In this document: positions 12,970-63,050 of the stretch, piece after piece
Layout: each line of letters opens with the position of its first letter
Numbering within the stretch: the first letter of the stretch is position 1
Source: Rhodopseudomonas sp. P2A-2r
Lineage (GTDB): Bacteria; Pseudomonadota; Alphaproteobacteria; Rhizobiales; Xanthobacteraceae
Direction: 5' to 3'
Assembly: GCF_026015985.1 (NCBI RefSeq)
Contig: NZ_CP110389.1
Span: 930,001 to 994,000 of the forward strand
DNA length: 64,000 nt
The notes under the pieces: model-generated
Seen by the model: the letters and a program-made list of their open reading frames with translations, nothing else
The model's database searches: none
Told to the model about the DNA's origin: nothing
Made by a program: the position numbers and the translations under genes

Positions 12970-13043
12970 GCGGGCGTAGTTCAATGGTAGAACGGCAGCT
13001 TCCCAAGCTGCATACGAGGGTTCGATTCCCTCCGCCCGCTCCA
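12970..13043 (+). tRNA. tRNA-Gly (anticodon CCC)
   Basis: A full cloverleaf can be drawn. The acceptor stem is GCGGGCG with CGCCCGC, the anticodon stem GCAGC/GCTGC with loop TTCCCAA (anticodon CCC), and the T arm is GAGGGTTCGATTCCCTC. CCA is encoded at 13041-13043. It reads glycine GGG codons. Confidence 0.97.
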
Positions 13044-33733: not shown

Positions 33734-34495
33734 CTACAGGCTCGACCGCAGCACGTAGCGGCGATTGTCCTTCTGCGCCGGGCGGGCGTTCATCGGATAG
33801 AGTTTCGCGAAGCTCGCGACGTCCGCGGCGGCTACCTGCATCGGCTCGGTCAGCACCAGCCATTCGACGATTTCCGAGCACGGCGGCGTGGTGAGCGAAC
33901 CGGGATAGCGATAATAGCCGCGCTTGGCCGGCACCAGGGCGTTGGGATCGATGCCGGCATCGGCCTTCACCGCAGGGCCTTCGGTCGCCGGCATGGTTGC
34001 GACGATCTTGCGGAAGGCGGCATTCGGCTTGCCGGTCGTCATCAGGACGCCGACCACCGCGAGGGCACCCGCATCCGAACGGTGCACAAAGTGCGCTTCC
34101 ATCGGAAAATTCTTGCCGCCGATCATGTGCTCGCTGGGACGGTGGAAGTGCACCTGCAGCAGCTTGTAGGTGGTCTTGTCCAGTTGCAGCGTGCTGCCGG
34201 GGGCGAAGTTCAGCTGGATCGTATGGCCGTTGTTGATGATGGTATCGGCCGTGTGGCCCCACTTGATCTGCAGGGGCGGCAGTTGCGATTTGACCGTGGT
34301 GCCGATGTCCAGCGGAGACTGTTGCGCACCGATCGCGCAGACCTTGCTGTCGGCGTCGAGATCGCCCCAGTGCGACGGACCGCCGTCGCCGTCATAACTC
34401 CAGTGGTGACCTTCCGCAGCAAAACCTGAAGTGGTGGTGCAGACCGGGCAAAGAGCGAGGCCGGCGAGGGCCTTGAGCATGTGGCGGCGATTCAT
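33734..34495 (-). CDS. Alpha-class carbonic anhydrase, exported
   Basis: 253 residues. Twin-arginine-like leader NRRHMLKALAGLALCP. The mature enzyme has HHWSYDGDGGPSHWGDL, the zinc histidines in VHFHRPSEH and EAHFVH, and YRYPGSLTTPPCSE, all hallmarks of alpha carbonic anhydrases. It interconverts CO2 and bicarbonate in the periplasm. The start at 34495 begins the leader. Upstream sequence is crowded with GGAAC/GTTCC elements next to the S24 repressor gene, suggesting control by that repressor. Confidence 0.92.
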   Translation of the reverse strand: MNRRHMLKALAGLALCPVCTTTSGFAAEGHHWSYDGDGGPSHWGDLDADSKVCAIGAQQSPLDIGTTVKSQLPPLQIKWGHTADTIINNGHTIQLNFAPGSTLQLDKTTYKLLQVHFHRPSEHMIGGKNFPMEAHFVHRSDAGALAVVGVLMTTGKPNAAFRKIVATMPATEGPAVKADAGIDPNALVPAKRGYYRYPGSLTTPPCSEIVEWLVLTEPMQVAAADVASFAKLYPMNARPAQKDNRRYVLRSSL

Positions 34496-34500
34496 GGCGG

Positions 34501-34584
34501 GTTCCCCGTTTATGGAATGGGAACCCGATAGCTGATTCGTGGAACCCGGAACCGGTGTTTTCCGTGAAAGTTCCAAAAAGTTCC
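34501..34584. promoter_or_regulatory. Cluster of GGAAY/GTTCC elements before the alpha-carbonic anhydrase gene
   Basis: Seven copies lie in 84 bases: GTTCC at 34501, 34570 and 34580, GGAAT at 34514, and GGAAC at 34520, 34541 and 34548. The pair at 34570/34580 is a direct repeat ten bases apart. It is near, but not identical to, the alphaproteobacterial LexA box GTTC-N7-GTTC. Candidate operators for the adjacent S24 repressor. Confidence 0.5.
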
Positions 34585-34593
34585 GATTTGGAC

Positions 34594-35220
34594 TTATTGG
34601 CTCGCCCACACGATCCGGGCGATCCACTCCACGTCGGCGGCCGGGATGGTGCGGTCGACGTGATTCGGATTCAGCGATGCCAGTTCGAGCGTCTTGGTGG
34701 TCCGGCGCTTCAGCTCCTTGACCATCACCTCGCCGCCGGTGGTCTTGACCACCACGCGGTCGCCCTTGCGGATCTGGGCGCCCGGCGACACCACGATGAC
34801 GTCGCCGTCGCGATAGGCCGGCTTCATCGAGTCGCCGGAGATCTCCAGCGCATAAGCGTGTTCGTCATTCACGGACGGCAGCCCGACCTCGTCCCAGCCC
34901 TTGCCGACCGGAAAGCCGCCGTCGTCGAAATAGCCGCCGGCGCCGGCCTGGGCGAAGCCGAGCAGCGGCACCGACTGCACCGAGCGCGCCACGCCGTCGA
35001 TCAGCTGCACGAAATTGTCGATGCTGACGCCGGTGGCGGTCAGCGCCTTGGACACCGATTCGGTGGAAGGCCAGCGCTCGCGACCGTCATTGGTGATGCG
35101 CTTGGATTTGTTGAAGGTGGTGGCGTCCAGGCCGGCTTTCTTCGCAAGGCCGGACGGTGAAAGGCCGTTGCGTTCGGCGAGGCGGTCGAGGGCGTTCCAG
35201 ATCTGATCATGGCTTAGCAT
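34594..35220 (-). CDS. LexA-like S24 helix-turn-helix repressor
   Basis: 208 residues. N-terminal helix-turn-helix region (LAERNGLSPSGLAKKAGLDATTFNKSKR). C-terminal S24 self-cleaving protease domain: the serine lies in ISGDSMKPAYRDGD near residue 130 and the lysine in GDRVVVKTTGGEVMVKEL near residue 168; a possible Ala-Gly cleavage site is AQAGAGG. Not the housekeeping LexA, whose DNA-binding domain differs. No phage genes surround it. GGAAY-type repeats flank it on both sides. Confidence 0.85.
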   Translation of the reverse strand: MLSHDQIWNALDRLAERNGLSPSGLAKKAGLDATTFNKSKRITNDGRERWPSTESVSKALTATGVSIDNFVQLIDGVARSVQSVPLLGFAQAGAGGYFDDGGFPVGKGWDEVGLPSVNDEHAYALEISGDSMKPAYRDGDVIVVSPGAQIRKGDRVVVKTTGGEVMVKELKRRTTKTLELASLNPNHVDRTIPAADVEWIARIVWASQ

Positions 35221-35260
35221 GTGCGTCGGTCCGGGTTGTCCGTCGCAAGCGACCGGACGG

Positions 35261-35284
35261 GGAATCATGGCGGAATTTAGGAAT
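35261..35284. promoter_or_regulatory. GGAAT repeats upstream of the S24 repressor gene
   Basis: GGAAT occurs at 35261, 35272 and 35280, with another GAATT at 35303. These lie 41-87 bases before the repressor's start. They match the elements on the other side of the intergenic region and so could mediate autoregulation. Confidence 0.45.
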
Positions 35285-35398
35285 TATTGCCTTGCTTCCA
35301 GAGAATTTGCAATCACCATTCGCCAAAAAATACCAAGCTTGAAGTAAGGCGGTGCCGCCGATACGGTCGGCAGATCCTAACAACTCCGCAATGTTCGG

Positions 35399-35434
35399 GA
35401 ATTCTGCCGAATTCTCAAGGAATTGCGGGGAATT
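35399..35434. promoter_or_regulatory. Four phased GAATT direct repeats before DUF952-pyrD
   Basis: GAATT begins at 35399, 35409, 35420 and 35430, spacing 10, 11 and 10 bases, ending 26 bases before the DUF952 start codon. Helical-phase direct repeats of this type suit a multi-dimer repressor or activator. The S24 repressor gene is divergent and 180 bases away. Confidence 0.55.
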
Positions 35435-35460
35435 GACGAACAGACGGGAAGTCCGGCCGG

Positions 35461-35808
35461 GTGCGCATCATCTATAAAATCTGTCCGGCTTCGGCCTGGC
35501 GCGAGGCCGAACGGCAGGGCGCCTATCGCGGCAGCGCCGACGATTCGCGTGACGGCTTCATCCATTTTTCCACCGCATCGCAAGTGGCGGAAACCGCAAG
35601 GAAGTACTTCTTCGGCCAGCCCGGACTCTTCCTGGTCGCGGTGGACGCCGATGTGCTCGACGATGCGCTGTTGCGCTGGGAGCCGTCGCGAGGTGGCGCG
35701 CTGTTTCCGCATCTCTACGGCGAACTCGATCTCGGCGCCGTGACCGAGGTGCTGGAGTTGCGCCTGCGCTCCGATGGCACCCATGACATTCCGGAGCTCC
35801 AATCGTGA
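35461..35808 (+). CDS. DUF952 family protein
   Basis: 115 residues starting at a GTG. The pattern IYKICPASAWREAERQGAY, then DGFIHFSTASQVAETA and LRWEPSRGGALFPHLYGEL is typical of DUF952, a family related to ADP-ribosyltransferase-like folds with no settled role. It overlaps pyrD by four bases and is often found directly before pyrD in alphaproteobacteria. Confidence 0.88.
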   Translation: MRIIYKICPASAWREAERQGAYRGSADDSRDGFIHFSTASQVAETARKYFFGQPGLFLVAVDADVLDDALLRWEPSRGGALFPHLYGELDLGAVTEVLELRLRSDGTHDIPELQS

Positions 35809-36899
35809 TCCGCGCCTTCGACGCCCTCTCCTTGCCGCTGCTGCGCTGGTTCGATCCGGAAGACGCGCACCGCCTCGCTATCCAGGGCCTGCGGCTGCTG
35901 CCGCCGTCGAAGCCACGGCCCGACGATCCGAAGCTGGCGGTACGTGCCTTCGGCCTGAACTTTCCCAATCCGATCGGCATCGCGCCGGGCTTCGACAAGA
36001 ATGCCGAGGTGCCGGACGCGCTGCTGCGGCTGGGCTTCGGCTTTGCTGAAATCGGCACGGTGACGCCGAAGCCGCAGGCCGGCAATGCCAGGCCGCGGAT
36101 CTTCCGGCTTGAGCGCGACGAGGCGATCATCAACCGTCTCGGTTTCAACAATGACGGCGCCGAGGTCGTGCTGCGCCGGCTGGCGGCGCGGGCGCAGCAT
36201 GGCGGCATCGTCGGGGTCAATGTCGGCGCCAACAAGGATTCCGCCGATCGCGTCGATGACTATGTCCGGCTGATCGAGACCTTCGCGCCGGTGGCGAGCT
36301 ACTTCACCGTCAACGTGTCGTCGCCGAACACGCCCGGCCTGCGCAACCTGCAGCAGGCGGCAGCGCTCGACGATCTGCTCGCAAAAGTGATCGACGCCCG
36401 CGAGCGCGTTCAGAAGAACGCCGGCGATTCGCCGGTGCTGCTGAAGATCGCACCCGATCTCAGCCTCGCCGATCTCGACGATGTCGTGCACATCGCGCGT
36501 TCGCGAAAAGTCGATGGCATGATCGTCTCCAACACCACGCTCGGTCGGCCCACGACGTTGCGCGAGCAGGCGCGGGCCAAGGAGCAGGGTGGCCTGTCCG
36601 GCCGGCCGCTGTTCCGGCTGTCGACGCGGATGGTGGCGGAGACCTATGTGCGCGTCGAAGGCGCGTTCCCGCTGATCGGCGCCGGCGGCATCGATTCCGG
36701 CGGCGCGGCGCTGACAAAAATCCGCGCCGGCGCCAGCCTGATCCAGCTCTATTCGGCGCTGGTCTATAAAGGCCTCGGTCTGGTCGACAGCATCAAGGCC
36801 GATCTGGTCTCGACGCTGCTGCGCACCGGTCGCGATTCGCTGTCCGAAATCGTCGGCGCCGATGCGGCGACGCTGACGGCGGAAGACTGGCCGGTGTGA
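35805..36899 (+). CDS. pyrD: Dihydroorotate dehydrogenase (quinone)
   Basis: 364-residue class 2 enzyme of pyrimidine synthesis, membrane-associated, passing electrons to quinone. FMN and substrate motifs are clear: NPIGIAPGFDKNAEVPDAL, the catalytic serine region VNVSSPNTPGLRNLQ, ISDs of the type LLKIAPDL, VSNTTLGRP and LIGAGGIDSGGAAL. The short N-terminal helix for the membrane is present. It is translationally coupled to DUF952. Confidence 0.96.
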   Translation: MIRAFDALSLPLLRWFDPEDAHRLAIQGLRLLPPSKPRPDDPKLAVRAFGLNFPNPIGIAPGFDKNAEVPDALLRLGFGFAEIGTVTPKPQAGNARPRIFRLERDEAIINRLGFNNDGAEVVLRRLAARAQHGGIVGVNVGANKDSADRVDDYVRLIETFAPVASYFTVNVSSPNTPGLRNLQQAAALDDLLAKVIDARERVQKNAGDSPVLLKIAPDLSLADLDDVVHIARSRKVDGMIVSNTTLGRPTTLREQARAKEQGGLSGRPLFRLSTRMVAETYVRVEGAFPLIGAGGIDSGGAALTKIRAGASLIQLYSALVYKGLGLVDSIKADLVSTLLRTGRDSLSEIVGADAATLTAEDWPV

Positions 36900-36948: not shown

Positions 36949-37653
36949 CTAAACGAGTGCGACCTTTCCGGTCGCGAGATCGTAGACGGCGCCGACCACG
37001 CGAATTTTTCCCTTGGCGACCATCTCGGCCAGAATCGGTTTGGCCTTTTGCAGCCGCTGAACGTTCTGCTTCACATTGGCGACGACGGCCCGCTCGGGCA
37101 GGTCCTGGCCGGGCTGCTTCAAGACCGGCTCGATGCCGGGTTTCATCGCCCGCACCAGATCCGCGATGTGGCCCGGAAGCGTATTGCCCTTCTGCAGCGC
37201 GCCAATGGTGGCATTGACGGCGCCGCAATTGCTGTGACCGAGCACCATGATCACCTTGGTGCCCAGCACGGCGGCGCCGTATTCCAGGCTCCCGAGGCCG
37301 TCCGGCGTGACGAAGTTGCCGGCGACCCGGACGATGAACAAGTCGCCGGGGCCCTGGTCGAACGCCAGTTCCGGTGCCACGCGTGAATCGGCGCAGCCCA
37401 GGATCGCCGCGAAGGGCGCCTGCCCCTGCGTGCGGGAGACGCGTCCCGCGGAAAAGTCCCGTTCGCGCATCTGGTTGGCGACGTAGCGCGCATTGCCTTC
37501 CATCAGCAGGTTGAGCGCCGCGTCGGGTGTGTCCGCAGCTGCTACCGGCTGCGCACTGGCCAGGGTGGGCAGCGAAGCGGCTGCCAGCACGCCGGCGCCA
37601 GCCTGGAAGAATTTTCGACGAGACATTCCGAGATCAGGACAAGCATCACACAT
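36949..37653 (-). CDS. Beta-class carbonic anhydrase with Tat signal
   Basis: 234 residues. The N-terminus has a short cysteine-containing leader, then a classic twin-arginine motif (MSRRKFFQAGAGVLAAASL). Zinc ligands are CADSRVAPE and HSNCGA. It is thus a periplasmic beta carbonic anhydrase. It is convergent with pyrD and 2.5 kb from the alpha enzyme. Start at 37653 chosen as the first ATG before the leader. Confidence 0.9.
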   Translation of the reverse strand: MCDACPDLGMSRRKFFQAGAGVLAAASLPTLASAQPVAAADTPDAALNLLMEGNARYVANQMRERDFSAGRVSRTQGQAPFAAILGCADSRVAPELAFDQGPGDLFIVRVAGNFVTPDGLGSLEYGAAVLGTKVIMVLGHSNCGAVNATIGALQKGNTLPGHIADLVRAMKPGIEPVLKQPGQDLPERAVVANVKQNVQRLQKAKPILAEMVAKGKIRVVGAVYDLATGKVALV

Positions 37654-37795
37654 TTGCACTCTCCATTGTTTCGAAAGCGCAACGGTATCTCGCCACTCCC
37701 GAGTTCGCGAAGAGGACAAATGCGAACAGTCGGCGACGTCGTAAACAGCTGGATAAAGGGACTGAACGGATTCTATGGATTTCAATTTGCTGCGG

Positions 37796-39115
37796 CTATT
37801 GGAACGACGTCCTGACCATCGCCGGATAACGCCAGGCCTGCAGCACGCCGCGCGACAGCAGGAATGCCAGGAACGCAATCCACAGGCCGGCATTGCCGAG
37901 CGGCGCCAGCACGTACCAGGCGGCGACATAGATCGCCAGCGCCGCCAGCATCAGGTTGCGCATGTCGCGCGCCCAGGCCGCGCCGATGTAGATGCCGTCA
38001 AAAGCGTAGGCCAGCACGCCGCAGGCCGGCGCCAGCGCTGCCAGGATCATGAACTCGCGCGCGGCGAAGCGCACCTCCGGGCTGGCGGTAATGATGTCGA
38101 TGAGTGAATTTCCAAATATTGCGAACAACAGTGTGACGCCGACGCCGAAGGCAGCGCTCCAGCCCAGCACCAGCTGGACCGCGCGGCCGAATTGCCGGCG
38201 GTCACGCGCGCCAAATCCCTGGCCGCATAATTGCTCGGCGGCGGTGGCGAGGCCATCGAGAAAGAACGAACCGATCATCACGAAGTTGTTCAGCACCGCA
38301 TTGGCGGCCAGGGTCAGGTCGCCGGCGCGCGCGCCCTGGGCGGTGAAAAACAGAAACGCCGCGATCAGTGCCGCGGTGCGGATCATGATGTCGCGGTTGA
38401 CCGCGAACAATCGCAGCAGCCGTTCGCGGTCGAACAGGACGGCGCGCGACACGCGCGCATTTGCGTCGAGCATGCGCCACACCACGACGACGCCCGCGGT
38501 GAAGCCGATGGTCTCGGCGGTCACGGTAGCCAGCGCGGCGCCCGATATGCCGAAGCCGAGTCGCAACACCAGCAATGCGGTGAGCGCCATGTTGATGAGA
38601 TTGATGCTGACCTGCAGGGTCAGTGCGATGCCGGTGCGGGCCTGGCCGACCAGCCAGCCGAGAATCACGTAGTTGCCGAGCATCAGCGGCGCCGACCACA
38701 GCCGGATGAAGAAGTAGGTCTTGGCGGCTGAGGTGACGGCGTCGCTGCCGCCCATGATGCCGAACACCAGCGCGCCCAGCGGCGTGCGCAGCACGATCAG
38801 GGTCAGTCCGATCGCCGCCCCCAGCATCAGCGCGCGCAGCAGGATCGCGCGCACCTCGATGCGGTCACCGGCGCCGAGCGCCTGCGCGGTGAACGCCACC
38901 GTCGCCATGCGCAAAAAGCCGAACAGCCAGAAGATGCAGTCGAAGGCGATCGAGGCCATGGCCACGCCGCCCAGCAGATGCGGATCGCCGAGCTGGCCGA
39001 CCGCGGTGGTGGAGACGATGCCGAGCAGCGGCGTGGTGAGATTGGCCAGCATCGCCGGGCCGGCGATGGCAAAGACGCGCCGGTGACCGACCGGTCTTGT
39101 CGGAGACACCAGCAT
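37796..39115 (-). CDS. MATE family efflux transporter (DinF type)
   Basis: 439 residues with about twelve membrane segments. AIAGPAMLANLTTPLLGIVSTTAVGQLG at the N-terminus and ASIAFDCIFWLFGFLRMATVAFTAQALGAGD are DinF-type features. It is a second, distinct MATE from the one at 9.5 kb. The small membrane gene that follows is 12 bases away upstream on the same strand. Confidence 0.9.
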   Translation of the reverse strand: MLVSPTRPVGHRRVFAIAGPAMLANLTTPLLGIVSTTAVGQLGDPHLLGGVAMASIAFDCIFWLFGFLRMATVAFTAQALGAGDRIEVRAILLRALMLGAAIGLTLIVLRTPLGALVFGIMGGSDAVTSAAKTYFFIRLWSAPLMLGNYVILGWLVGQARTGIALTLQVSINLINMALTALLVLRLGFGISGAALATVTAETIGFTAGVVVVWRMLDANARVSRAVLFDRERLLRLFAVNRDIMIRTAALIAAFLFFTAQGARAGDLTLAANAVLNNFVMIGSFFLDGLATAAEQLCGQGFGARDRRQFGRAVQLVLGWSAAFGVGVTLLFAIFGNSLIDIITASPEVRFAAREFMILAALAPACGVLAYAFDGIYIGAAWARDMRNLMLAALAIYVAAWYVLAPLGNAGLWIAFLAFLLSRGVLQAWRYPAMVRTSFQ

Positions 39116-43476: not shown

Positions 43477-44925
43477 TCAGAACCTGGCGATGACCGGGGT
43501 GTCGAAATGATAGTTCAGGCCGGTCCGGAAGATGTGCTCGGTGACGCTCGTTGAAAACGTGTGCGTCGCGCCGAGCGCGGTGAAGCTGCCGGTGCTGCGT
43601 CCGAGATCAACGTAAAGATACTCGGTCTTCGACGTCCAGTTCGGTGCGGCCCAGCCGAAGAACTGCATGGGACGCTCGATGCCGCCGCCGGCGGTCCAGC
43701 CGCCGCGGCTGTTCTTGAACGTGAAGGCGGCGGTACCGCCTGTCGTGGCTTGGGCAACAACGTCGGTCTTGACCTCGCCATAGGCAAAGCCGCCGGTTGC
43801 ATAAAACAGTGTCGATCCCACCGTATAGCCGAGCCGTCCGCGCGCCCTGCCGAGCCAGGACAGTTTCTGGTCAAGCGCGATCGACAGCGCGGTGGTGCAC
43901 AGGGTGAGGCAGGCCTTGTCGTCCTTTTGCGTCGATCCCTGGAAATCGGCCTCGACGCCGGCGACCCACGCGCCCGACTGCCAGTTGTAGCCAACCTGCC
44001 CGCCGCCGAGGAAGCCCTGCGGGACGAGGTCGAACTGTTCGTTATAGGCGCCGACCGCGTAGGAGCTGCGGTTGCGGCCGTAGCCGGAGCCGAAATTGCC
44101 GCCGACATAGCTGCCCGACCAGTTTGCCGGCGCCGGCGGTGCATAGGCGGCGACGCTGCCGATCCGGTAGTTCAGTCCGGCGCGGAAGATGTTGTCGCGA
44201 TAGTTGGTATCGACGGTGTGCGGCACGGTGGCAAACGTATAGCTGCCGGTGCGCGAACCGAGATCCAGATACAGATATTCGAGTTTGCCGGTCCAGTTGC
44301 CGCCGAGCGCGGCTTCGACGCCGCTGCCGATGGCGTAGCCGGTGCGGACCTGTTCGTTGACGAAAGTGCCGGTTGATACGGCCGGTGCCAGGCCGCCGAA
44401 TGTTGCCGGCGTCGCGGTCTCAACGATACTGGTCTTCACGTTGCCGTAAGCGAAGCCGCCGGTGAAATAGCCCAGCACCGGCCCGGTGGTGTAGCCGATC
44501 CGCCCGCGTACGGTGCCGAACCAGTCCAGCTTGCGATCGAGTTGCACACGGTTCGTCGCTGAACAGACGAACAGGCAGGCGTCGTCTTGCTGACCGGCCC
44601 CCTGGATGTCGGCTTCGAGGCCGAGCACCCAATTTTTTATCTGCCAGTTGTAGCCGGCCTGGATGCCGCCGATGGCACCGAACGGTGACAGGTGGGTCTG
44701 CTCGGACGACCGGGCGGGAATCGACAGTCGGGTCAGGTCGCGCCCGACGCCCACTCCGGCGTTGACGCCCAGATAGAACCCACTCCAGTCATAGGCCGCC
44801 GCCAGTGCGGGTGCCTTGGTGTAGGGTTTCACCGGCATATCAGCGGCTTGCGCGCCTGCTGTCTGCGGCGAATCGGACACACTTTGCAACAATACCTCTG
44901 AAGTCCGCGGGAGGCGGGCCCACAA
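43477..44925 (-). CDS. Double-barrel Omp25/31-type porin, signal peptide lost
   Basis: 482 residues, ending in NYHFDTPVIARF, an outer-membrane C-terminal phenylalanine. Two homologous barrel units of about 215 residues each: YDWSGFYLGVNAGVGVGRD and later WSGSYVGGNFGSGYG. Before AQAADMPVKPY there is no hydrophobic signal region; the N-terminus is MWARLPRTSEVLLQSVSD from a TTG at 44925. That start lies in the T tract of the next gene's terminator and leaves no room for a promoter. It is probably a 5'-truncated copy, expressed only by read-through if at all. Confidence 0.8.
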   Translation of the reverse strand: MWARLPRTSEVLLQSVSDSPQTAGAQAADMPVKPYTKAPALAAAYDWSGFYLGVNAGVGVGRDLTRLSIPARSSEQTHLSPFGAIGGIQAGYNWQIKNWVLGLEADIQGAGQQDDACLFVCSATNRVQLDRKLDWFGTVRGRIGYTTGPVLGYFTGGFAYGNVKTSIVETATPATFGGLAPAVSTGTFVNEQVRTGYAIGSGVEAALGGNWTGKLEYLYLDLGSRTGSYTFATVPHTVDTNYRDNIFRAGLNYRIGSVAAYAPPAPANWSGSYVGGNFGSGYGRNRSSYAVGAYNEQFDLVPQGFLGGGQVGYNWQSGAWVAGVEADFQGSTQKDDKACLTLCTTALSIALDQKLSWLGRARGRLGYTVGSTLFYATGGFAYGEVKTDVVAQATTGGTAAFTFKNSRGGWTAGGGIERPMQFFGWAAPNWTSKTEYLYVDLGRSTGSFTALGATHTFSTSVTEHIFRTGLNYHFDTPVIARF

Positions 44926-44952
44926 ACAAAAACCCCGGCCGCGAGGCCGGGG
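44923..44952 (-). terminator. Terminator of the second tandem porin
   Basis: Same CCCCGGCC/GGCCGGGG hairpin and TTTTTGTTTG tract as the first copy. It overlaps the apparent start codon of the truncated porin downstream. Confidence 0.9.
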
Positions 44953-44979
44953 TTTTGAAGTTTCGGGAGTTTGCCGGGA

Positions 44980-46353
44980 TCAGTACCTGGCAACGACCGG
45001 GGTGTTGAAGTGGTAGTTCAGGCCGGTGCGGAAGATGTGTTCGGTGACGCTGGTGGTAGCGACCGTGGTGTTGACGGTGTTCGAGGTCGAGCCGAGATCG
45101 ACATAGAGATATTCGGCCTTCGAGGTCCAGTTCGGCCCGAACAGGCCGAATAGCTGAAACGGGGTTTCGAGACCCGCGCCCGCGGTCCAGCCGCTCCTTG
45201 TGGTCGAGGCATTGACCGCCTGGACGCCGTCTTCACTGATTTTGGTCTTCACCCCGCCGTAAGCGTAACCGCCGGTGGCGTAGAACAAGGTCGAACCGAC
45301 CGAGTAACCGAGGCGACCGCGAACGGTTCCGAACCACGGCAACTTGGCGTCATAGGCGACGCTGCCGAAGCCAACCACGGTCTTGTTATCGCGCTGGCTG
45401 GAGGCCTGGATGTCGGTTTCCAGACCGTAGACCCAGTTCGCGGCCTGCCAGTTATAACCAAGCTGCACGCCGCCATTGATGCCATCGGGAGCGAGGTTGA
45501 AGACCTCGTTTGCGCCCGGGTCGTCGGGAAGGTCGGCAGGTTTGACAAGGCTGCTGCGATCGCGGCCGGTGCCGGAGCCGACGTTGCCGCCGAGATACCA
45601 GCCGGTCCAGTCGGCTGCGGCGACCGGCACGTAAGCGCTGTTGCCGCCGACGCGATAATTCAGCCCGACGCGAAAGATGTTCTCGCGAACTTCGGTGTTG
45701 AGCGTCTGCGGGCCGAACGCGTAGCTGTTGTTGCCCATGTTCAGGTAGAGATGTTCGATCTTGCCGGTCCAGTTGCCGCCAAGTGCCGCTTCAACACCGC
45801 TGCCGACGACCCAGCCGTTCTGGATCTTGTTGGTCGAGAACACCGTCCCGGCATTATCGAAGCTGATGCTGGTCTTGACGTTGCCGTAAGCATAACCGCC
45901 GGTGACGTAGCTGAGCACGGGACCGGTGGCGCGGCCGATGCGGCCGCGAACCGTACCGAACCAGTCGATCCTCTGATTGTAGGCGGTCGGCAGCAACGGG
46001 CCGCCCAGATTGGTGCGGTCATCGCTCAGGCCAGCGCCTTGGATGTCGGCTTCGAGGCCGAAGACGACCGGGCCGAGCATGGAGCCGGTCTGCCAGTTGT
46101 AGCCGACCTGACCGCCGCCGAGAGCACCTTGCGGTGACAGGTAAATCGACTCGGTCCCCAAAACCCCGGCGTTATGGACAGCACGATCCCGGCCGAGCCC
46201 GATGCCCGCGTTGACGCCCAGATAGAAGCCGCTCCAGTCGTAAACGGCCACCACCGGCGCCTTGTAGTAGGGGGCTTTCGCAGCCATGTCGGCGGCCTGC
46301 GCGCCGGCGGTCAAACCGAGAAGCGTCGCGGTGGCAAGGAAAAGGCGCTTCAT
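44980..46353 (-). CDS. Double-barrel Omp25/31-type porin, complete
   Basis: 457 residues. Sec signal MKRLFLATATLLGLTAGAQA|AD. Two repeated beta-barrel units follow: YDWSGFYLGVNAGIGLGRD to FRVGLNYRVGG, then ADWTGWYLGGNVGSGTGRD to FRTGLNYHFNTPVVARY. Each has the FGTVRGRIG / FYATGGYAYGGVKT strands and YLYVDLG typical of Omp25/31. It ends in a C-terminal tyrosine. Predicted outer-membrane protein of 16 strands in total, or two 8-strand barrels. The start at 46353 was chosen for the signal peptide. Confidence 0.9.
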   Translation of the reverse strand: MKRLFLATATLLGLTAGAQAADMAAKAPYYKAPVVAVYDWSGFYLGVNAGIGLGRDRAVHNAGVLGTESIYLSPQGALGGGQVGYNWQTGSMLGPVVFGLEADIQGAGLSDDRTNLGGPLLPTAYNQRIDWFGTVRGRIGRATGPVLSYVTGGYAYGNVKTSISFDNAGTVFSTNKIQNGWVVGSGVEAALGGNWTGKIEHLYLNMGNNSYAFGPQTLNTEVRENIFRVGLNYRVGGNSAYVPVAAADWTGWYLGGNVGSGTGRDRSSLVKPADLPDDPGANEVFNLAPDGINGGVQLGYNWQAANWVYGLETDIQASSQRDNKTVVGFGSVAYDAKLPWFGTVRGRLGYSVGSTLFYATGGYAYGGVKTKISEDGVQAVNASTTRSGWTAGAGLETPFQLFGLFGPNWTSKAEYLYVDLGSTSNTVNTTVATTSVTEHIFRTGLNYHFNTPVVARY

Positions 46354-46488
46354 GAGGATTCCAGTTCGGCTGGCCGTCCATGGGGACATATGGATTTTGT
46401 CCGTAACGCTGAAGTTACGGCCTGTGGTAATTGGATAATGCTGCTCTCAGGTTAATTTTGTTCCCGCAAATAGCCGGGCATTTGCCGC

Positions 46489-46517
46489 AAAGCGAAAACC
46501 CCGGCCGCGAGGCCGGG
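46489..46517 (-). terminator. Orphan copy of the porin terminator
   Basis: CCCGGCC/GGCCGGG hairpin with a GCGA loop, flanked by TTTTCGC on the minus strand. No gene lies directly upstream of it on that strand. It may be a remnant of a deleted porin copy. Confidence 0.55.
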
Positions 46518-46670
46518 ATTTTCGTTTCAGCGTGGCCGTTGGCCGTGGCCGTCAGGCCGCAAGGCCAGGCGCCGTGCTTGCGGGCGAAGCATCAAGAGGC
46601 TGCAAGGGACGCCGGATTGCTTCATCGGAAGGACACCTCGCGATGACGGCGGAAGGGCCTGAGCACTCTG

Positions 46671-46700
46671 CAAACAAAAACCCCGGCCGCGACGCCGGGG
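46671..46700 (-). terminator. Terminator of the third tandem porin
   Basis: CCCCGGC and GCCGGGG stem (six-base loop CGCGAC) followed on the minus strand by TTTTTGTTTG. One base pair shorter than in the other copies. Confidence 0.88.
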
Positions 46701-46727
46701 TTTTGAAGTTTCGGGAGTTTGCCGGGA

Positions 46728-48107
46728 TCAGTACCTGGCAACGACCGGGGTGTTGAAGTGGTAGTTCAGGCCGGTGCGGAAGATGTGCTCCTTGACCGAG
46801 GTGGACGAGGTGAGCGCAGCCGCTCCGACACCGGGAACAGTTCCGACGAAGGCGTTCGAGCTGGAACCCAGATCGACATAGAGGTATTCGGTCTTCGAGG
46901 TCCAGTTCGGCCCGAACAGGCCGAGCAGCTTGAACGGGGTCTCGATGCCGCCGCCGACTGCGTAGCCATCCCCAGTCTTGGAGAAGCTGGCAATCTGGAC
47001 GCCGCCAGCGTTGATCTTGGTCTTTACGCTGCCGTAAGCGTAACCGCCGGTGGCGTAGAACAGGGTCTGACCGACCGAGTAGCCGAGGCGACCGCGAACG
47101 GTACCGAACCAGGGAAGCTTCTGGTCATAGGCGACGCCGCCCAGAGCGACCGTGGTCTTGTTGTCCTTCTGGCTGGAGCCCTGGATGTCGGCTTCGATGC
47201 CGTAAACCCAGTTGCCGGCCTGCCAGTTGTAGCCGGCCTGCACGCCGCCAACGACGCCGTCGGGAACCAGGTTGAAGGACTCAACCCCGGGGGCGCCGGC
47301 AAGCGTGCTGCGATTGCGGCCGATACCGGATCCGACGTTGCCGCCGAGATACCAGCCGGTCCAGTTCGCCGCCACCGGGGCGGTGTAGCCGGCATTGGTG
47401 CCGCCGATGCGGTAGTTCAGGCCGACGCGGAACAGGCTTTCGCGGAATTCGCTGGCGTAGACCTGGCCGGCGAACGCATCGCTCTTGTTGCCGAGGTTCA
47501 GGTAGAGATATTCGATCTTGCCGGTCCAGTTGCCGCCGAGCGCGGCTTCAACGCCGGAGCCGACGGTCCAGCCGCCCTGCGTGCGGTTGTTGGTGAACGC
47601 GGTCGCGCCGCCTTCGGTGATCGTGGTCTTGACGTTGCCATAGGCGTAACCGCCGGTGAAGTAGCTCAACACCGGACCGGTCGCGAGACCGACGCGGCCG
47701 CGAACCGTGCCGAACCAGTCGTTCTTGGTGTTGTAGGTGGTCAGCGTCCCGCCGATCAGCCCGCCGCCAACGGCAGGATAACCGTCCGAGAGGCCGGCGC
47801 CCTGGATGTCGGCTTCGATGCCGTACACGATCGGGCCGAGCAGCGAATCAGCCTGCCAGTTGTAGCCGATCTGACCGCCGCCGAAGCCGCCGTTCGGGGC
47901 CTGGTACAGCGAATCGCCGGTGAAGCTGTGTCCGGTGCGGTCGCGGGCAGTGCCGACACCGGCGTTCACGCCGATGTAGAAGCCGGTCCAGTTGTAGACC
48001 GAAACGAGCGGCGCCTTGTAATAGGGGGCCTTGGCGGCCATGTCGGCGGCCTGCGCACTTACAGCGGTTCCGAGGAGCGCGGCGCTGGCAAGAAGGATAC
48101 GTTTCAT
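46728..48107 (-). CDS. Double-barrel Omp25/31-type porin, complete
   Basis: 459 residues. Sec signal MKRILLASAALLGTAVSAQA|AD. First unit YNWTGFYIGVNAGVGTARD to FRVGLNYRIGG; second unit ANWTGWYLGGNVGSGIGRN to the C-terminal NYHFNTPVVARY. The final 20 or so codons and terminator region are almost identical in DNA to the second porin, a sign of gene conversion. It is the most upstream of three copies and has the longest promoter region. Confidence 0.9.
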   Translation of the reverse strand: MKRILLASAALLGTAVSAQAADMAAKAPYYKAPLVSVYNWTGFYIGVNAGVGTARDRTGHSFTGDSLYQAPNGGFGGGQIGYNWQADSLLGPIVYGIEADIQGAGLSDGYPAVGGGLIGGTLTTYNTKNDWFGTVRGRVGLATGPVLSYFTGGYAYGNVKTTITEGGATAFTNNRTQGGWTVGSGVEAALGGNWTGKIEYLYLNLGNKSDAFAGQVYASEFRESLFRVGLNYRIGGTNAGYTAPVAANWTGWYLGGNVGSGIGRNRSTLAGAPGVESFNLVPDGVVGGVQAGYNWQAGNWVYGIEADIQGSSQKDNKTTVALGGVAYDQKLPWFGTVRGRLGYSVGQTLFYATGGYAYGSVKTKINAGGVQIASFSKTGDGYAVGGGIETPFKLLGLFGPNWTSKTEYLYVDLGSSSNAFVGTVPGVGAAALTSSTSVKEHIFRTGLNYHFNTPVVARY

Positions 48108-62973: not shown

Positions 62974-63050
62974 GGTCCCGTAGCTCAGCCGGATAGAGCG
63001 ACGGTTTCCTAAACCGTAGGTCGCATGTTCGAGTCATGCCGGGATCGCCA
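62974..63050 (+). tRNA. tRNA-Arg (anticodon CCT)
   Basis: Acceptor GGTCCCG with CGGGATC (one G-T pair), D arm GCTCAGCCGGATAGAGC, anticodon arm ACGGT TTCCTAA ACCGT (anticodon CCT), T arm GCATGTTCGAGTCATGC, and an encoded CCA. Reads AGG codons. Confidence 0.97.

Follow-up and report, generated by a model that had tools for sequence, protein, structure and literature searches.

A 14-bp inverted repeat, AGGAATTATTGCCT, located at 35279–35292 of the window (the whole 64,000-nt stretch of DNA that was analysed), overlies the −10 hexamer of the promoter of a gene for a repressor of the S24 (CI/LexA) type, and is predicted to be the operator of that gene. The repeat has the form AGG-AATTATTG-CCT, hereafter AGG-N8-CCT. 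Judged from sequence comparison, a domesticated, chromosomally fixed CI/LexA-type repressor probably binds this dyad and represses itself. In the proposed mechanism, a dimer of the S24 protein would bind the dyad and the bound dyad would cover the −10 hexamer of the S24 gene's own promoter, repressing it and holding the level of the protein down. RecA-stimulated self-cleavage (A92-G93, S131 and K168) would relieve the repression after DNA damage, a step that we infer because the cleavage residues are intact in the copy found in the window. Self-control of the S24 gene appears likely. The dyad offers an operator that can be put to the test, and a likely autoregulatory loop, for a repressor whose orthologs (E≤1e-30) are found in 144 of the 199 genomes sampled from the order, including Bradyrhizobium and Rhodopseudomonas.

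The S24 gene (34594–35220, minus strand) encodes a protein of 208 aa with an N-terminal helical region (residues 1 to approximately 75) and an S24 domain (residues 85–204; 95.4 bits against a Pfam cut-off of 23.3). Its start was set at the ATG at 35220, where the ortholog matches begin, so that the gap between S24 and the divergent gene for a DUF952 protein extends from 35221 to 35460. An ortholog, as a full or split match, was found in all 37 genomes of the same family, including the genome that contains the window. The predicted model (pLDDT 83.6, pTM 0.50) includes helices at residues 4–17, 22–28, 53–63 and 67–75, with a block of pLDDT 89–97 over residues 1–70 and no match to a Pfam HTH model. 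Fold matches were led by lambda repressor and LexA, and were good for the C-terminal domain. The dipeptide A92-G93, which we take to be the cleavage site, and S131 and K168, presumably the catalytic residues, are all present. The residues invariant in 44 aligned orthologs include L31, D32, T34, F36, N37, S39, K40 and R41 as well as R49, W50 and P51, and the segment from L31 to R41 together with R49, W50 and P51 is presumed to contact DNA. A link between the change of T35 to A or S and loss of the box was considered and set aside, as it was seen by eye only and both kinship and the dyads that differ in their inner letters confound it. No published description of this family of S24 proteins or of the site, and no paper containing any of four 14-mers, was found in a PMC library without subscription papers or preprints.

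Two sets of orthologs were used. One was made up of 61 genomes, including that of the window, and the other was the best 80 of 285 loci, drawn from named genomes (Tardiphaga, Rhodopseudomonas, Afipia, Nitrobacter, Bradyrhizobium and MAGs). The named set was chosen by similarity to the S24 protein of the window, so the conservation figures for the clade are those of close relatives. Intergenic regions were recovered from 78 of the 80 loci, as one (L084) is at a contig end and another (L097) was dropped because of an insertion that makes its gap longer than 1500 bp. When the window was included, TAGGAATTATT[AG]CC was found in 77 of 79 regions, and the two exceptions (L095 and L118) carry ATAATTCCTA variants. 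Thirteen regions of at least 300 bp were excluded from the alignment and the other 66 were thinned to 44, in which columns 35278–35287 and 35290–35291 are invariant and columns 35288 and 35292 are conserved in 42 of the 44 (TAGGAATTATT-R-CCT). An earlier note on this DNA had met the dyad only as a GGAAT at 35280. A possible degenerate second site, GGGAATCATGGCGG (35260–35273), lies 19 bp from the dyad and is a weak candidate picked out by its position only. In the dropped locus, which comes from Bradyrhizobium tropiciagri SZCCT0294, transposase-like ORFs (L097:941–1799) are inserted beside the S24 promoter. This insertion stops where the dyad's upstream arm lies, leaving AATAATTCCTA with the AGG arm gone, and an inverted CCTAGGAATAATT adjoins it.

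To follow the dyad across the order, upstream DNA was also read at 109 more loci (29, and 80 of the rest), some of them in genomes already sampled, and all 243 loci whose upstream sequence was long enough were reduced to 130 non-redundant orthologs by shared protein words, with no tree weighting. AGG-N8-CCT was found no more than 130 bp upstream in 78 of the 130, against 0–8 for AGG-Nk-CCT with k of 2–7 or 9–20, and was present in 4 of 129 examples of a control stretch (−260 to −131). Among the 105 orthologs with less than 70% identity, 59 had the dyad at k = 8, while 0–7 were found at any other k and approximately 3 in shuffles. For the relaxed forms, the counts were 98 for GG-N8-CCT (against 11–28) and 113 for GG-N8-CC (against 49–68). 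The exact AGG-N8-CCT is absent from 52 of the 130, and in many members of the genus CGG replaces AGG in one arm. No symmetric covariation was detected at the inner pairs 4/11, 5/10 and 6/9 of the dyad, and only the central pair exceeded the shuffles. The earlier note had proposed that the S24 protein binds direct GGAAY repeats. The peak at a single spacing indicates that the conserved architecture is instead an inverted repeat. The self-control that was proposed with it can be retained, as a conserved operator-like site that includes the GGAAT at 35280 is found in the gene's own promoter, but not by way of the direct repeats.

In the 6.7-Mb genome to which the window belongs, AATAATTCCTA and the exact dyad each occur once. 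When one mismatch to AGGAATTATTRCCT was allowed, 18 genomes of the genus yielded 22 matches, 18 at S24 (one in each genome) and four elsewhere, compared with four for a reversed control. With two mismatches, five further sites were found in the window's own genome and four with the reversed control. In 43 genomes outside the genus, one mismatch gave 60 matches, of which 10 are at S24 and the other 50 are not, and the control gave 14; one genome (G047) has nine non-S24 matches and none in the control. Twenty of the 50 non-S24 matches, including all nine from G047, were read and 18 of them are in stop-free frames of at least 100 aa, which in GC-rich DNA are suggestive only of coding; in the likely coding DNA the site word can read as Gly-Ile-Ile-Ala or Glu-Glu-Leu-Leu-Pro. 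Because 18 of the 20 are in long stop-free frames, the surplus outside the genus may be a coding effect. Two of the G047 matches (L319 and L320) are in shorter frames, and that in the middle of L320, AGGATTTATTACCT, is in a short frame within AT-rich DNA and could mark a second target there. Other genera may thus have a further target, and a site that has diverged may exist within this genus.

One reading of these counts is that a phage repressor was domesticated across the whole order with a regulon that consists of itself only, each genome of the genus having one private operator, the same dyad being kept over deep divergence and self-cleavage being lost repeatedly. We consider this unlikely, its odds being lowered because the non-S24 matches exceed the control outside the genus. 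If it were true, the S24 protein would be not an SOS switch but a homeostatic DNA-binding protein, with an output that is possibly protein–protein contact, or immunity to incoming phages that have the same operator.

In the 130 orthologs, A92, G93, S131 and K168 occur together in 104, S131 in 105 and K168 in 112, and the catalytic residues are not among the invariant ones. The Ser and/or Lys is absent from 25 orthologs belonging to several families (for example L205, L207, L211, L253, L261 and L270); these keep the DNA-contact segment, and the dyad is kept in 15 of the 25. A quickly built tree, with a simple model, requires at least 14 changes of the Ser/Lys state, and no association between loss of Ser/Lys and loss of the operator was detected (seven independent pairs, median p 1). 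The 25 orthologs argue against a universal cleavage-based switch. If the repeated loss is confirmed, it raises the question of why a LexA-like repressor that cannot be cleaved is retained.

Repression by the S24 protein bound at the dyad might also reach the divergent genes, and synteny makes it possible that DUF952-pyrD is under its control. DUF952 (35461–35808, plus strand; PF06108 match) and pyrD (35805–36899, plus strand; dihydroorotate dehydrogenase, named as in the earlier note and from synteny) adjoin S24 in 79 of the 80 named loci, the 80th (L084) being the one at a contig end, and DUF952 or pyrD is beside S24 in 47 of 55 other loci. A precedent for a small S24-pyrD regulon, in which the dyad would act on both sides, perhaps by looping or as a roadblock, is the Francisella repressor FddR, which is reported to regulate both its own gene and a divergent one (PMC13148647). 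Such a regulon nevertheless seems unlikely here, as the predicted DUF952-pyrD promoter, CTTGA-N19-TACGGT (35338–35367, plus strand), starts approximately 45 bp past the dyad, and a dyad of its own was found in only 1 of the 23 orthologs (of the 130) with a recognisable pyrD-side promoter, compared with 4 of 129 for the control stretch. The proposal in the earlier note that S24 controls DUF952-pyrD is hence backed by synteny and not by any operator that we could find. No DUF952/pyrD was found upstream at eight loci, one of them (L030) with 26 bp of upstream sequence and another with 238, and in the seven apart from L030 the exact dyad is present in three (L032, L136 and L141) and not in four. 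The DUF952-pyrD promoter is itself a conserved block, with CTTG in 44 of the 44 aligned regions, the TACGGT columns in 42–43 and the pattern with N18–20 in 62 of the 79 regions. In the clade it is kept almost base for base, beyond what its poor −10 requires. At the gathering cut-off, Rfam models matched two tRNAs only (12970–13040 and 62974–63047, both plus strand) and nothing in the leader.

The predicted S24 promoter (35283–35312, minus strand) consists of a −35 hexamer, TTGCAA (35312–35307), 18 nt and a −10 hexamer, AATAAT (35288–35283), and was the one sigma-70-like promoter found in 34480–35480, where shuffles gave a mean of 0.2. The GCAA of the −35 (35309–35312) is kept in 42–43 of the 44 aligned regions. 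As the box partly coincides with the −10 hexamer, some of its conservation is conservation of the promoter. It could be argued from this overlap that S24 does not bind the box at all, which would then be either a core promoter of an atypical kind or a target for some other regulator, and the divergent DUF952-pyrD promoter is also near-invariant, so conservation need not mean an S24 operator. However, the CCT arm falls outside the sigma-70 hexamers and the arms keep their fixed N8 spacing though the inner letters vary. Genomes of the genus have the site at S24 and almost nowhere else, as would be expected of a dedicated regulator more than of a global one, and we regard the explanation that the box is not for S24 as quite improbable.

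The repeats described in the earlier note were recounted, and the positions and counts given for them were all correct. In the S24-DUF952 gap, GAATT occurs at 35273, 35281, 35303, 35399, 35409, 35420 and 35430, the last four copies forming an array (35398–35434, plus strand) with steps of 10, 11 and 10 bases in the DUF952-pyrD leader, outside the conserved operator. GGAAT occurs at 35261, 35272 and 35280, with further copies at 35398, 35419 and 35429. On the other side, a cluster of seven GGAAY/RTTCC elements in 84 bases (34501–34584; at 34501, 34514, 34520, 34541, 34548, 34570 and 34580, the last two being 10 apart) precedes an alpha-carbonic anhydrase gene (33734–34495, minus strand, with its ATG at 34495; PF00194 match). 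The window is 65.3% GC and contains 43 GAATT on the plus strand in 64 kb. Seven GAATT is the maximum for any 240 bp of the window and is reached in this gap, and no 84-bp stretch other than the one starting at 34501 contains seven GGAAY/RTTCC. In 20,000 first-order Markov copies of the gap, the mean number of GAATT was 0.59, and neither seven or more GAATT nor the 4-copy array arose in any of them. Since neither the Markov copies nor the densities elsewhere in the window match them, the repeats are not due to local composition.

Conservation of the repeats in relatives that keep S24 was a different matter. The GAATT array, with four or even three copies, was found in none of the 78 other intergenic regions, and two array copies were found in three (L056, L067 and L091). 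The number of GAATT per gap, counting both strands, averages 2.1 with a maximum of eight (L074), and is nine in the window. An array with even two copies was found in none of 17 same-genus loci (one of them, L020, has three GAATT), and the conserved box is present in all 17. These loci keep the repressor without the repeats, an outcome that the earlier note itself had named as counting against its proposal. In some Afipia loci, L074 and L081, a GAATTC pair stands at the corresponding point of the DUF952 leader, so the array may in part derive from an element of the leader that is only weakly conserved. The carbonic anhydrase gene is patchy in its distribution, being present in 11 of the 61 genomes and adjoining S24 in five of those 11; it adjoins S24 in 11 of the 80 named loci, some of which have short downstream flanks. 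Twelve other carbonic anhydrase loci have 0–1 GGAAY/RTTCC in the 220 bp preceding the start of the match, which in several falls inside the gene, and a second set of 13 loci, sharing two genes with the first, has 0–3 in 110 bp. Control of the carbonic anhydrase by S24, another proposal of the earlier note, is not supported. An EcfG-type stress promoter for this gene was also considered and was rejected, as one GGAAC-N16-GGTT is present upstream of it in the window and the 12 and 13 other loci (two shared) have none. The alpha-carbonic anhydrase gene and a beta-carbonic anhydrase gene (36949–37929) are within 4.2 kb of each other in the window, and a second alpha-type gene is present in the same genome (G000:C1:1075146).

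A regulon of the S24 gene, the carbonic anhydrase and DUF952-pyrD, all controlled by the S24 protein through direct repeats of GGAAY, would fit the density of the repeats on both sides of the gene in this strain and the 10–11 bp spacing of the array, but is very improbable when relatives have neither the array nor, where examined, the cluster. The array and the cluster are strain-specific sequence, and the S24 protein need not bind either. A striking repeat pattern in a single genome had led to the correct gene, but on mistaken grounds.

The S24 protein can be compared with three known systems. It resembles the LexA of the Alphaproteobacteria, which binds GTTC-N7-GTTC, in having an S24 domain and the cleavage residues. 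It differs in that it scores 34.8 bits with the LexA equivalog model, below the cut-off of 110.95, and the genome has a separate LexA (G000:C1:4060745, 177.7 bits). Neither GTTC-N7-GTTC nor GAAC-N7-GAAC is present in the 64-kb window. The pair at 34570 and 34580 was considered as a LexA box and rejected, since it is GTTC-N6-GTTC, one base short. All five GAAC-N6-GAAC in the window fall in two of three neighbouring genes for outer-membrane beta-barrel-like proteins (43477–48107, minus strand; 459–482 aa) that are alike by eye.

Like lambdoid CI, the S24 protein combines a helical N-terminal region (residues 4–75), the helices of which we take to resemble those of CI, with an S24 domain, and residues 11–207 match PHROG 4 ('transcriptional repressor'). 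Lambda repressor was its first PDB fold match, with a TM-score of 0.37 over the whole query, and five deep orthologs (L253, L261, L263, L268 and L270) have two dyads 19–21 bp, or about two turns, apart. In contrast to lambdoid CI, no phage gene was noticed alongside and the neighbours are conserved housekeeping genes, while all 159 phage records matched are less than 60% identical.

Francisella FddR is likewise a chromosomally fixed, phage-type repressor of the S24 family with a palindromic site in its own promoter and a divergent neighbour (PMC13148647). The FddR site is GTG-N11-CAC rather than AGG-N8-CCT, and FddR is reported from one genus and as regulating the divergent gene, whereas the S24 protein is spread across an order and no second target was found for it (PMC13148647). 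The S24 protein also differs from FddR in that it coexists with a true LexA and in that the Ser and/or Lys has been lost in 25 of its 130 orthologs.
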